From Micromonospora echinaurantiaca (lineage in GTDB: Bacteria; Actinomycetota; Actinomycetes; Mycobacteriales; Micromonosporaceae): a stretch of DNA of 64,000 bases. Below the pieces are notes generated by a model that saw only the letters and a list, made by a program, of their open reading frames with translations, searched no databases and had not been told where the DNA came from. Both the position numbers and the translations under genes were made by a program. The stretch spans positions 6,005,001-6,069,000 of the forward strand of contig NZ_LT607750.1 of assembly GCF_900090235.1 (NCBI RefSeq). Direction: 5' to 3'. Below are positions 28,164 through 47,982 of this stretch, in pieces; the stretch's first letter is position 1; the number at the start of each line of letters is the position of its first letter.

Positions 28164-28985
28164 ATGGTCGACCTCGCAGACCTGCTCGCGGATCTGGCCA
28201 CCGAGTCCGAGCAGCTGGATGCCCTGGTGAGTGCCCTGGCACCGGCCGACTGGGCCCGACCGACCCCGGCGCCGGGCTGGACGGTCGGGCACCAGATCGC
28301 CCACCTCGCCTGGACCGACCACGTCGCGCTGCTCGCCGCCACCGACACCGCCGCCTTCTTCGCCTCGGTCACCACCGCCCCCGATCCGGCCCGGTTGGTC
28401 GACGACGGCGCCGAGGAGTTCCTCGCCCCGCCGGCCGAGCTGCTGGCCCGCTGGCGCGCCGGCCGTACGGCGCTCGCCGAAGCCCTGGCCGCCGCGCCGC
28501 CCGGCGAGAAGCTGCCCTGGTACGGCACCCGGATGTCGCCCGCCTCGATGGCCACCGCCCGGATCATGGAGACCTGGGCGCACGGCGAGGACGTGGCCGA
28601 CGCGCTCGGCGTCACCCGCCCGGCCAGCGCCCGGCTCCGGCACGTGGCGTATCTCGGGTTCCGTACCCTCGGGCACAGCTTCGCCGCCCACGGCCGGCCG
28701 GTGCCGACGGTGCCGGTACGGATCGAGCTGGCCGCGCCCGACGGGACGACCTGGAGCTTCGGCCCGACCGACGCCGCCGACCGGGTCACCGGACCGGCGC
28801 TGGACTTCTGCCTGCTGGTCACCCAGCGCCGGCACCGCGCCGACCTGACCCTGACGGCCACCGGCCCGGTCGCCGACGAGTGGCTCGACGTGGCCCAGGC
28901 GTTCGCCGGCCCACCGGGCGCCGGCCGCCCACCCGCCGACAGCCCGACCCCGGACACCACCGTGGATAGCGGAGTGCCGGCATGA
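28164..28985 (+). CDS. TIGR03084-family DinB-like / maleylpyruvate-isomerase-N-type protein
   Basis: A 273-residue protein with an N-terminal DinB-like helical domain, typical of mycothiol-dependent isomerase relatives. The start PTPAPGWTVGHQIAHLAWTD and MATARIMETWAHGEDVADALG supply the His residues for metal binding. In actinobacteria this family (TIGR03084) is often encoded next to acyl-CoA carboxylase and AtuA-like genes, as here. The enzymatic activity is unproven. Start ATG 28164 follows GGAGG. Its TGA (28983-28985) overlaps the ATG of an MSERSE mini-ORF repeat. Confidence 0.8.
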   Translation: MVDLADLLADLATESEQLDALVSALAPADWARPTPAPGWTVGHQIAHLAWTDHVALLAATDTAAFFASVTTAPDPARLVDDGAEEFLAPPAELLARWRAGRTALAEALAAAPPGEKLPWYGTRMSPASMATARIMETWAHGEDVADALGVTRPASARLRHVAYLGFRTLGHSFAAHGRPVPTVPVRIELAAPDGTTWSFGPTDAADRVTGPALDFCLLVTQRRHRADLTLTATGPVADEWLDVAQAFAGPPGAGRPPADSPTPDTTVDSGVPA

Positions 28986-29065
28986 GCGAGCGAAGCGAGC
29001 GAATCATCGGGCTCAGGGCGATGGTGCCTCATGACGGCACGGAGCGAAGCGGAGTGCCGGCATGA
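28982..29065 (+). repeat. MSERSE mini-ORF repeat, copy A (27 codons)
   Basis: An 84-nt frame starting MSERSERIIGL and ending RSGVPA. Its ATG overlaps the preceding stop (gcATGAgc) and its TGA overlaps the ATG of the AtuA gene (gcATGAgc), so the net insertion length is 80 bp. The 20 bases AGCGGAGTGCCGGCATGAGC occur at both ends (28968-28987 and 29048-29067). Deleting one repeat length restores a direct ATGA overlap between the flanking genes. A close copy in the same frame and of the same length lies at 47223-47306. Confidence 0.85.
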
Positions 29066-30768
29066 GCAGGGTGCTGCGGGTGGGCAACGCCTCCGGCTTC
29101 TACGGCGACCGGTTCAGCGCCTGGCGGGAGATGCTCGACGGGGGCGACCTGGACGTGCTGACCGGCGACTACCTGGCCGAGCTGACCATGCTGATCCTCG
29201 GCCGGGACCGGCTCCGCGACCCGGCCCTCGGCTACGCGAAGACCTTCCTCCGCCAACTGGAGGGCTGCCTCGGCACCGCGCTGGACCGGGGCGTACGGAT
29301 CGTGACCAACGCCGGTGGGCTGAACCCGGCCGGGCTGGCCGCCGCGATCGGCGCGCTCGCCGAGCGGCTCGGCCTGCCGGTCCGGGTCGGCTACGTCGAG
29401 GGCGACGCGCTGGACCGCCCGGACGCGCTCACCGCGAACGCCTACCTCGGCGCGTTCGGCATCGCCGCCTGCCTGGACGGCGGCGCGGACGTGGTGGTCA
29501 CCGGCCGGGTCACCGACGCGTCCCTGGTGGTGGGGCCGGCGATCGCCCGGTTCGGCTGGGGTCGCGACGACCTCGACGCGCTGGCCGGAGCGACGGTCGC
29601 CGGCCACCTGGTGGAGTGCGGCGCCCAGGTGACCGGCGGCAACTTCAGCTTCTTCACCGAACTGCCCGACGGCGGCCACCGCCCCGGCTTCCCGATCGCC
29701 GAGCTGCACCCGGACGGTTCCTGCGTGCTCACCAAGCACCCGGGCACCGGCGGGGCGGTCACCGTGGAGACGGTCACCGCGCAGCTGCTCTACGAGGTGG
29801 GCGGGCCGGCGTACCTGGGGCCGGACGTGGTGACCCGGCTGGACACGGTCACCCTGCACGCCGACGGCCCGGACCGGGTCCGGGTCAGCGGGGTGCGCGG
29901 CACACCGCCGCCGGACACCCTCAAGGTCGGCGTCAACAACCTCGGCGGCTTCCGCAACTCGATGACGTTCGTACTGTGCGGGCTGGACATCCCGGCGAAG
30001 GCGGCCCTGGTGCGCGGCCAACTGGAGGAGGCGGTCGGCAAGGAGGGGCTGGAGTTCACGCTGGCCCGCACCGACCACCCGGACGCCGCCGACACCGAGG
30101 CGGCGAGCGCGCTGCTGCACGTACACCTGCGCGACGGCGACAAGGCGCGGGCCGGGCGGGCGTTCTCGGCGGCCGCGGTGGAGCTGGCGCTGGCCTCCTA
30201 CCCGGGCTGCACGCTCACCACGCTGCCCGGCGACGCCACGCCGTACGGGGTGTTCACCGCCGACACGGTGCCGCAGGACGCGGTGGCGCACGTCGCGGTG
30301 CTCCCGTCCGGCGAGCGGGTGCCGATCCCGCCGCCGACCCGGACCGACCCGCCGGCACCGGAGCCCGCGCCGGCCGACCCGCCGCCGGTCGCCGCCGGCG
30401 GGCCCACCCGGCGTGGCCCGCTCGGCGAGCTGGTCGGCGCGCGCTCCGGCGACAAGGGCGGCGACGCCAACCTCGGCGTCTGGGCCCGCACCGACCGGGC
30501 GTACGACTGGCTGCGCGGCTGGCTCACCGTCGAGCGGCTCGCCGAGCTGCTGCCGGAGACCGCGACGCTGGCCGTCGAGCGGTACGAGCTGCCGAACCTG
30601 CGCGCGGTGAACTTCGTGATCCGCGGGCTGCTCGGCCAGGGGGTGGCCGCGTCCACCCGGTTCGACCCGCAGGCCAAGGCGCTCGGCGAGCTGCTCCGGT
30701 CCCGGCTCGTCGACCTGCCCGCCGACCTCCCGGCCGGACCGGCCACCACCACCGGGGAGGGCTCGTGA
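29062..30768 (+). CDS. AtuA-family protein (DUF1446; acyclic terpene utilisation)
   Basis: A 568-residue protein of the AtuA/DUF1446 family. Family stretches include RVGNASGFYGDRFSA near the N-terminus, LTGDYLAELTMLIL, IVTNAGGLNPAGLA, GGADVVVTGRVTDASLVVGP and SGDKGGDANLGVWAR in the C-terminal half. AtuA was named from the Pseudomonas citronellol/geraniol pathway; its reaction is not established. In actinobacteria this family recurs with an acyl-CoA carboxylase pair, as here. The start overlaps the mini-ORF stop and its own stop overlaps the next start (GTGA). Confidence 0.88.
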   Translation: MSRVLRVGNASGFYGDRFSAWREMLDGGDLDVLTGDYLAELTMLILGRDRLRDPALGYAKTFLRQLEGCLGTALDRGVRIVTNAGGLNPAGLAAAIGALAERLGLPVRVGYVEGDALDRPDALTANAYLGAFGIAACLDGGADVVVTGRVTDASLVVGPAIARFGWGRDDLDALAGATVAGHLVECGAQVTGGNFSFFTELPDGGHRPGFPIAELHPDGSCVLTKHPGTGGAVTVETVTAQLLYEVGGPAYLGPDVVTRLDTVTLHADGPDRVRVSGVRGTPPPDTLKVGVNNLGGFRNSMTFVLCGLDIPAKAALVRGQLEEAVGKEGLEFTLARTDHPDAADTEAASALLHVHLRDGDKARAGRAFSAAAVELALASYPGCTLTTLPGDATPYGVFTADTVPQDAVAHVAVLPSGERVPIPPPTRTDPPAPEPAPADPPPVAAGGPTRRGPLGELVGARSGDKGGDANLGVWARTDRAYDWLRGWLTVERLAELLPETATLAVERYELPNLRAVNFVIRGLLGQGVAASTRFDPQAKALGELLRSRLVDLPADLPAGPATTTGEGS

Positions 30769-46764: not shown

Positions 46765-47226
46765 TCAGGCGACCTCGACGATGACCTCGACCTCGACCGG
46801 GGCGTCGAGCGGCAGCTCGGCGACGCCGACCGCGCTGCGGGCGTGCCGGCCGGCCTCGCCGAAGACCGCGCCGAACAGGTCGGAGGCGCCGTTGATGACG
46901 CCCGGCTGACCGGTGAACCCGGGGGCGGAGGCGACGAAGCCGGTGAGCTTCACGATCTTGACGACGTTCTCCAGGCCGACCAGCGAGTCGATCGCGGCCA
47001 GCGCGTTCAGCGCGCAGCGCTGGGCCAGATCCTTGGCCTGGTCGGCGGAGACCCCGGCGCCGACCTTGCCGGTCGCCAGCAGCTTCCCCTCGGCCATCGG
47101 CAACTGGCCGGAGACGTACACGTGCTGCCCGGACTGCACGGCCGGCACGTAGCTGGCCACCGGCGGTACCACCTCGGGCAGCGTCAGCCCGAGCTCGGCG
47201 AGCTTCGCGTGCGGACCGTTGCTCAT
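46765..47226 (-). CDS. RidA-family protein (enamine/imine deaminase)
   Basis: A 153-residue member of the YjgF/YER057c/UK114 family, which hydrolyses reactive enamines from PLP enzymes. Visible family stretches are VYVSGQLPMAEGKL, NALAAIDSLVGLENVVKIVKLTGFVAS, and the closing GRHARSAVGVAELPLDAPVEVEVIVEV, including the substrate-carboxylate Arg. It corresponds to Rv3678c. Its ATG is formed by the end of MSERSE repeat copy B (ATGA). Confidence 0.92.
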   Translation of the reverse strand: MSNGPHAKLAELGLTLPEVVPPVASYVPAVQSGQHVYVSGQLPMAEGKLLATGKVGAGVSADQAKDLAQRCALNALAAIDSLVGLENVVKIVKLTGFVASAPGFTGQPGVINGASDLFGAVFGEAGRHARSAVGVAELPLDAPVEVEVIVEVA

Positions 47227-47306
47227 GCCGCCACTCCGCTTCGCTGCGTAGCGGCCTGAGGCACCAGCGCGCTGAGCCCGATGATTCGCTCGCTCCGCTC
47301 GCTCAT
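47223..47306 (-). repeat. MSERSE mini-ORF repeat, copy B (27 codons)
   Basis: An 84-nt frame starting MSERSERIIGL and ending RSGVAA, matching copy A at 28982-29065 in length, frame and most bases. Its ATG (47306) overlaps the DUF4177 stop, and its TGA (47223-47225) overlaps the ridA ATG (47226). The flanking genes are in an ancestral block and would otherwise be joined directly, which shows the copy was inserted at the junction. Confidence 0.85.
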
Positions 47307-47458
47307 GCCTTGGGCCGCTTCAGGTAGGCGACCAGCTGGTCCGGGTTCGGGCCGGGGATCACGGCGACGAGTTCCCACCCGTCCTCGCCCCAGTTGTCGA
47401 GGATCTGCTTGGTCGCGTGGACCAGCAGCGGGACCGTGGCGTATTCCCACTTCTGCAT
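47303..47458 (-). CDS. DUF4177-family small protein
   Basis: A 51-residue protein (ATG 47458) reading MQKWEYATVPLL, then DNWGEDGWELVAVIPGP, the typical DUF4177 pattern. Its position upstream of ridA matches Rv3678A. Upstream in-frame codons to 47566 look like non-coding. Function unknown. Its stop codon overlaps MSERSE repeat copy B. Confidence 0.88.
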   Translation of the reverse strand: MQKWEYATVPLLVHATKQILDNWGEDGWELVAVIPGPNPDQLVAYLKRPKA

Positions 47459-47502
47459 CGGTGGAGGGCTCCCTCGGTGGCAATGACACTTCGAGGGACA
47501 GC

Positions 47503-47982
47503 CTACGGTCCGGCGGCCGGCCGGGGCGCGGGACGCTGCTCCGGCGCGCTCGGCAGTTCGCCGCACGGGCCGCTGTGCTCGTACCGCTGGGGGCAGCGGG
47601 TGCGGTCCGGCAGCAGCAGGTCACAGAAGACCCGGTGCCGGTTGTTCTGGTCGTCGGCGGTGGAGACGGTGGTCTCGCCGGCGTCGAGTTCGGTGAGGAA
47701 GCCGAGCGAGGTGGCGACCGTGCCGGCCAGGGCGGTCGCGGCGGCCAGGTCGGCGACCCGGATCGGCAGGTGGATGACGTAGCCGGGCTCCTCGTCGTCC
47801 CGGGTCCGCTCGGCCGGCCGGGCCAGCGTCCGCACCACCTCGACGGGCTCGACGATCCGCCGGTACGACCGCTCGTTGATCGGCAGGCCCGCGGCGACCC
47901 CCTCGCCCTCGCCGGCCGAACCGGGACCGGACAGGCGCCCCGTCGGGAACTGGGCTCGGGGGTTGTTGTCCGCGTCGCGCAT
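47503..47982 (-). CDS. Conserved hypothetical protein (159 aa)
   Basis: A 159-residue soluble protein with a low-complexity N-terminus and a compact middle region (GYVIHLPIRVADLAAATALAGTVATSLGF, VSTADDQNNRHRVFCDLLLPDRTRCPQRYEHSGPC). Three Cys (FCDLL, RCPQR, GPCGE) and His residues could form a metal site, but this is inference. It precedes the DUF4177 gene by about 45 bp on the same strand. I recognise no named family. Confidence 0.7.
   Translation of the reverse strand: MRDADNNPRAQFPTGRLSGPGSAGEGEGVAAGLPINERSYRRIVEPVEVVRTLARPAERTRDDEEPGYVIHLPIRVADLAAATALAGTVATSLGFLTELDAGETTVSTADDQNNRHRVFCDLLLPDRTRCPQRYEHSGPCGELPSAPEQRPAPRPAAGP

Follow-up and report, generated by a model that had tools for sequence, protein, structure and literature searches.

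The question raised by this locus is what kind of sequence lies between two genes of Micromonospora echinaurantiaca, the first with a mycothiol maleylpyruvate isomerase N-terminal domain and the second with an AtuA domain, which are joined by a mini-ORF that overlaps the stop codon of one and the start codon of the other. The preliminary description had proposed an element that inserts at translationally coupled junctions and preserves their coupling. We analysed the window, meaning the whole stretch of 64,000 nt (6005001-6069000 of the single 7.2-Mb contig that was searched as the genome), and the features concerned are these:

28164..28985, + strand: upstream gene of 273 aa with an MDMPI_N domain; the first ATG of unit A overlaps its stop TGA (28983-28985)
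28968..28981, + strand: probable remnant of a partial unit's right end, which supplies the SGVPA C-terminal codons of the upstream gene today; identical to 29048-29061
28982..29065, + strand: repeat unit A, a mini-ORF of 27 aa in the type I frame, with ATGA at both ends
29029..29033, + strand: TCATG, predicted by folding to pair with CATGA at 29061-29065 (start codon; start-codon pairing 0.99)
29035..29040, + strand: 5' arm of the inner stem, CGGCAC
29051..29054, + strand: GGAG, a 4-mer resembling a ribosome-binding site, brought by unit A and putatively functional
29054..29059, + strand: 3' arm of the inner stem, GTGCCG
29062..29065, + strand: terminal ATGA, in which the mini-ORF stops and the AtuA gene starts
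29062..30768, + strand: downstream gene, AtuA family, 568 aa
46765..47226, - strand: gene downstream of unit B, Ribonuc_L-PSP / YjgF-like domain
47223..47306, - strand: repeat unit B, 84 nt long and bounded by ATGA on either side

The 84-nt frame (ATG at 28982, in-frame TGA at 29063-29065), its ATGA overlaps at both ends and the duplication of a 20-bp end are all present as first described, with AGCGGAGTGCCGGCATGAGC at 28968-28987 and again, 80 bp further on, at 29048-29067. The upstream copy of this end is probably left over from a partial unit, since the upstream protein finishes in ...SGVPA like the mini-peptide and the end is absent from the congener junctions read. Therefore, the excision of 80 bp on paper, with which the preliminary description had argued, does restore a stop-start overlap but does not recreate the junction of the relatives. 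With up to three mismatches allowed, the first 29 nt of unit A matched twice in the window and not once in 100 shuffles. At unit B, the 87-aa ORF that ends on its first ATGA (47303-47566) failed the coding test. A scan of 28500-29500 against Rfam returned a single match, to CRISPR-DR23 (E 0.9, below the gathering score), which lies outside unit A at 29080-29115.

A dispersed repeat at start codons

At E <= 10 the 84-nt query matched the genome 69 times, and 60 of these matches reach E <= 1e-7, so the recurrence of unit A is not due to chance. Thirty-three stretches around the matches were taken, and the matches were then refined with a profile. The unit proved to be the dispersed repeat that the preliminary description had suspected, with relatives in other Micromonosporaceae and at least 40 arrays in this genome, each holding 1 to 9 full units with a period of 80; the figure is a lower bound, since 40 of 62 first-look candidates were scored. 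The host genes at the 40 arrays are unrelated to one another. Among 48 aligned units of this genome, type I frames start MSERSERI, type II frames (MSERQRAN) have gained a base near position 12 and lost one near position 28, and type III units are 75 nt long; between its two indels, type II reads nearly the same DNA as type I in another frame. All but one of the 48 keep an intact frame from ATGA to ATGA, the exception being an 85-nt unit whose frame continues into the next unit.

Several arrays are of note in themselves. L045 (5651792-5652538) holds nine full, near-identical units and a partial right end, and is likely a variable-number locus. Partial right ends precede the first full unit in 5 of the 40 arrays, namely at 28968-28981 of the window and in L043, L045, L047 and L062; L047 also holds a 27-nt mini-unit (MSERGVPA), an internal deletion that keeps the frame. 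A scan of the genome for right ends placed 54 of 59 sites inside the listed arrays. Those outside (566033, 3853382, 4590907, 4860811 and 5999465) may be solo ends or further copies.

Placement was assessed with coding-type frames, recognised from frame length and from the G+C of each codon position. In 28 of 40 arrays such a frame ends on the first TGA and another begins on the last start codon, compared to 7 of the 570 [AG]TGA sites in the window (Fisher p 2e-32); the L065 array was shortened in this two-sided test and used at full length in the walk described below. Ten of the remaining arrays passed downstream only, one upstream only and one on neither side, so that 12 of 40 fail at least one test, 11 of these upstream. 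By the same rule the window contains 52 coding-type ORFs of at least 80 codons, and a stop-start overlap is found at roughly 7 of these 52 genes vs. 28 of the 38 arrays at coding starts, a rough comparison in that start codons were not called. A walk through xTGA overlaps from the first ATGA reached a coding-type gene in all 40 arrays, although in L039 and L042 it crossed a further frame of 57 or 30 nt on the way. The gene start reads [AG]TGAG[CT] in 37 of the 40. Elsewhere in the genus and family 54 loci were taken, of which 53 could be parsed, and all 53 have intact frames ending on ATGAG, with units of 84 nt at 52 loci and 81 nt at one; these loci are the best model matches and hence biased to intact units, and L130 and the side cluster of L110 were not parsed.

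The proposal of an element at coupled stop-start junctions thus holds for the majority of arrays and for every chain, but must be widened for the 12 that fail a test: the placement rule common to all, as read from the arrays, is the start codon, most often where it overlaps the stop of the previous gene. Random placement and broken reading frames, which would have spoken against the proposal, were looked for and not found.

Empty and filled junctions, and spread among actinomycetes

The AtuA gene was found in all 24 sampled congeners, 22 of which have the same upstream gene, and by eye unit A is absent from the 130 nt before AtuA in all 24. One congener (G019) carries a different 60-nt insert at this place, starting ATGAGCGAACG and in frame with AtuA.

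The gatC-gatA junction was compared in the 90 of 151 congeners whose gatA is most similar, and could be parsed in 88 (L223 and L259 were not parsed). The preliminary description had pointed to close strains with the same junction lacking the unit, and such alleles are abundant: 58 junctions are empty and 30 are filled. The inserts measure 80 bp in 21 cases, 160 bp in two, 240 bp in one, and 53, 65, 71, 89, 98 and 131 bp once each, corresponding to mini-frames of 57 to 135 nt and to one, two or three copies of the unit; all 30 lengths (53-240 bp) are 2 mod 3, and the stop-start chain is kept in all 30. Two congeners with almost identical gatA genes, one filled (L252) and one empty (L270), differ by a clean 80 bp. 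Type I and type II frames occur at this one junction in different species. The gatA start reads [AG]TGAG[CT] in 26 of 30 filled and 27 of 58 empty junctions, relatedness not being removed from this comparison. Three divergent inserts, of 80, 131 and 98 bp (L193, L212 and L213), start with GTGA before a gatA that begins ATGACC, and may form a subfamily of their own or one in decay.

In a tree built from 450 gatA bases, at least 16 changes between filled and empty are needed, of which 4 are forced by well-supported branches; the tree is poorly resolved, with 7 of 85 inner branches well supported. These states would fit either gain or precise loss, and at each site we presume gain. Whole-operon recombination might instead have spread the two states, with units multiplying through tandem duplication and loss and never inserting. 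The tandem near-identical units, nine full ones in L045, would fit such a history, and ATGAGCGA, common to both ends of the unit, would allow precise loss. However, it would have to account for a single genome in which one unit stands at some 40 junctions whose genes are unrelated, and for frames I and II at one junction in different species, and we consider it very unlikely.

Beyond the genome, a model of the unit (R1) matched 150 of the 151 genomes of the genus, the present one included (E 0.01), and 100 of 150 sampled genomes of the family, in 30 of 44 genera and with the present genome and 15 congeners included (E 0.001). Across the phylum, 29 of 296 genomes were matched at E 0.01; apart from the present genome and one congener, genus g61 supplies the convincing cases, in two genomes (G534 and G350). 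The others have 1-4 matches per genome at E 1e-4 to 1e-2, of which few loci were inspected, and are not counted as members. These model scans scored at most 30 or 15 candidates per genome. G534, which belongs to another family of the same order, has units of 84 nt with a period of 80. A second model (R2), built from such g61 units together with ones from Nocardia and Kribbella, matched 15 of 198 genomes of genus g8 (E 0.001), which we take to be Mycobacterium from the appearance of its genes (an MmpS/MmpL-like junction). Of 19 listed g8 matches 10 were read: four are complete 69-nt frames (L394, L395, L409 and L403), three are 34-nt left-end matches outside any mini-ORF chain, and the rest are partial or doubtful, some of the partial ones likewise lying outside a chain; such placements speak against a strict start-codon rule. 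The three left-end matches (L396, L397 and L412) are the same and apparently mark one intergenic site in three genomes.

Named genomes were scanned for the left end followed 45-60 bases on by ATGAG, with no requirement for a length divisible by three; at least 120 stretches were obtained and 80 loci read. These come from nine genera that we assign to the Micromonosporaceae, from at least 11 other named genera (Nocardia, Streptomyces, Kitasatospora, Microbispora, Nonomuraea, Planotetraspora, Actinoallomurus, Nocardioides, Aeromicrobium, Kribbella and Actinopolymorpha) and from one MAG; the family membership of the named genera, Streptomycetaceae among the families, is our assumption. Four Streptomyces loci (L317, L327, L337 and L342) have similar flanks, with ATCGGAAGGC before and GC[AG]GCAAC after, and are apparently one junction in four species. 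Searches of plasmid and phage collections by blastn with an 86-nt unit gave no match at E 0.01, and carriage on plasmids or phages was rejected on these grounds.

An open frame and a predicted hairpin over the start codon

The mini-ORF appears to be maintained as a frame rather than as a protein, since 150 of 151 distinct Micromonosporaceae units are open (93 of type I and 26 of type II), the synonymous excess is small, and 79 of the 82 spans at the 80 named-genome loci are 0 mod 3 (72-84 nt). Of the three other spans, that of L286 lies at a contig edge, and the remaining two belong to L290 and L307. For type I the excess is 1.13, compared to 0.79 and 0.75 when the two other frames are read; type II has 0.90, compared to 0.82 and 0.84. 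Purifying selection on the peptide was disfavoured in view of these two ratios and the two peptide frames. From the aligned units, what is kept is an uninterrupted stop-to-start frame and not the protein, and compensated frameshifts alter the peptide as the frame stays open. A selected small protein (MSERSER...) spread by gene duplication would likewise leave nearly all units open, and might produce the slight type I excess. It would not explain why type II units give a different peptide from nearly the same DNA, why mini-frames of such different lengths occupy one junction, or why units of other lineages have only their ends in common with those of the Micromonosporaceae. We therefore regard this reading, already disfavoured by the ratios, as highly improbable.

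The right end of the unit can form a stem. In the 48 units of this genome RNAalifold recovered it with almost no covariation energy (-0.04 kcal/mol). When 105 distinct right ends are compared, pairing holds in 86% of the cells of the five inner pairs and 59 cells have changed on both sides, compared to shuffle means of 72% and 18 and shuffle maxima of 75% and 28; slid alignments are at most 55% paired. The number of pair types, 15, is not above the shuffle maximum of 16. With its compensatory changes the stem is covarying, as far as aligned right ends can tell. G.U-type pairs outnumber A.C-type pairs by 30 to 9, which favours the mRNA strand as the one that folds. At the named loci the 40 nt before the ATGA fold modestly better than shuffled sequences (mean z -0.67, 60 of 82 below 0).

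Folding predictions place the new start codon inside the hairpin. In the fold of 29020-29075 an outer helix, TCATG/CATGA, covers the AtuA start (z -2.36). Predicted start-codon pairing averages 0.76 in 39 arrays of this genome vs. 0.43 in shuffles, 0.83 in the 30 filled vs. 0.19 in the 58 empty gatA junctions, and 0.73 vs. 0.38 in shuffles at 48 loci outside the Micromonosporaceae. The Streptomycetaceae have a weak mean of 0.40 (n=9) and Actinoallomurus, at 0.09 (n=2), lacks such pairing, so that it is not general to all relatives. Nor is a buried start peculiar to the unit, since 5 of 22 congeners reach at least 0.9 at an AtuA start that lacks it; the mean of the 22 is 0.38, compared to 0.99 here. 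A 4-mer resembling a Shine-Dalgarno sequence stands before the terminal start of 149 of the 150 units and at 73 of the 82 named loci, and 24 of the 40 arrays have one before their first start; random 11-mers of the window have one in 10% of cases.

Two readings assign the hairpin another role. It might act in DNA as an end for single-strand transposition, in which the guide CTCAT pairs with the target ATGAG and a Y1/HUH enzyme places the unit; burial of the start codon would then be a by-product made tolerable by the mini-ORF. At the ends of IS200/IS605 and REP elements, an internal guide beside a hairpin pairs with the target. The layout of guide, hairpin, linker and ATGAG agrees with this, as does the prevalence of [AG]TGAG[CT] in the arrays and, relatedness included, at filled gatA junctions. 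However, the single Y1 transposase gene of the genome has no unit in its 3.4-kb locus, where the best unit-model score was E 4.9, no hairpin or guide is equally conserved at the left end (by eye, TCAT follows ATGA after 18 nt in part of the units), and the excess of G.U-type over A.C-type pairs is the better fit to RNA. We hold this possibility tentatively, as a rather unlikely one. Alternatively, the mini-ORF and its alternative stems could be an attenuator, or a spacer bearing a promoter, kept for operon regulation. Two mutually exclusive stems, 1-2 (88% paired) and 2-3 (93% paired), are indeed possible, and promoter activity has been reported for the MIRU spacer of senX3-regX3 in mycobacteria (PMC4213456). 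Yet stem 1-2 has 18 compensations vs. 60 in stem 2-3, for which it was rejected as the conserved stem, the peptide is without constraint, the host genes of the 40 arrays are unrelated, and presence and absence alternate frequently at gatC-gatA. Regulation of this kind appears unlikely.

Proposed coupled translation and the likeness to MIRUs

We favour, at a probability of about 75%, a MIRU-like mobile repeat of actinomycetes that inserts at start codons and leaves the next gene dependent on coupled translation. The sequences themselves establish the repeat, its placement rule, empty and filled alleles, a frame kept without its peptide and a covarying stem; translation of the mini-ORF, re-initiation, and the dependence of the gene on both are what we infer from them. 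The insertion target would be a start codon [AG]TGA, mostly [AG]TGAG[CT] and mostly overlapping the stop of the previous gene. Insertion would lengthen the junction by 80 bp, or by some other 2 mod 3 length, and the old start codon would then open the mini-ORF. The right end of the unit would bring a new ribosome-binding site and a new gene start, so the host protein need not change. In the mRNA this right end would fold, with the internal TCATG pairing with CATGA and the ribosome-binding site inside the hairpin. Because both the site and the start would be enclosed by the hairpin, the gene would be reached mainly by ribosomes that have translated the mini-ORF, which would melt the hairpin, stop on the TGA and re-initiate on the overlapping ATG. 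The kept frame, the unkept peptide, the compensated indels and the covarying stem could thus all follow from one requirement, the passage of ribosomes through the mini-ORF.

Loci of MIRUs serve to type tuberculosis isolates, and to our knowledge how MIRUs move and affect their operons is unsettled. The preliminary description knew of no published account of such an element, which does not hold for the kind: MIRUs are described as apparently mobile mycobacterial repeats that insert at start codons and contain an ORF coupled at -4 nt (PMC12548453, a 2025 review citing Supply 1997). In the parts of the published descriptions consulted, MIRUs resemble the present units: the repeats are short, occur both scattered and in tandem, and lie at start codons where neighbouring genes run in one direction, with an internal ORF coupled at -4 nt. 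The senX3-regX3 units, of 77 and 53 bp (PMC2453075 and PMC4213456), follow the 2 mod 3 rule of the present inserts. In both, strains or species differ in copy number (1-9 units per array here), and both are apparently mobile, empty and filled sites being seen here at gatC-gatA (58 and 30 of 88). The present repeat differs in its period of 80 and its MSERSER/SGVPA-type sequence, in its occurrence in nine Micromonosporaceae and at least 11 other named genera, and in the covarying start-codon hairpin, which those parts of the MIRU literature do not describe. We suggest that it works like a MIRU, the likeness being one of architecture drawn from published descriptions; a search with MIRU primers matched none of 396 genomes. 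No published description of the repeat family itself was found among open papers searched by titles and abstract openings, a weak indication that none exists. The hairpin over the start codon, the compensated frameshifts and the spread beyond the Micromonosporaceae are additions to what had been noted before.

Other known systems share single properties with the repeat. REP/BIME elements with their RAYTs are likewise small dispersed repeats with a hairpin and possibly with guide-target pairing; however, the present units are open, translated-type frames joined to genes at start codons and do not lie outside frames. A RAYT partner was rejected, none being seen beside the sole Y1 gene. MITEs are also short and dispersed, encode no transposase and leave empty and filled sites, but the right-end scan of this genome identified neither terminal inverted repeats nor a parent element. 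Termination-reinitiation coupling at ATGA overlaps has the same stop-start overlap and a structure at the second start that ribosomes open; there it is a feature of a single operon, whereas here the device is a portable repeat. A more far-reaching and speculative proposal, which we think improbable as a whole, is an actinomycete-wide superfamily of mobile start-codon locks with MIRUs as one branch, in which the CTCAT/ATGAG pairing would, in single-stranded DNA, find the target, often a start codon, and in mRNA bury that start; the mini-ORF would be the key by which ribosomes open it again, and the gene would survive the insertion but be obligately coupled.

Our results indicate that the MIRU architecture occurs in many actinomycetes other than mycobacteria, with presence and absence at one junction across one genus. 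The predicted, covarying hairpin offers a concrete mechanism of translation that is open to test. Finally, gene starts beside MSERSER- or SGVPA-like sequences may be misannotated.
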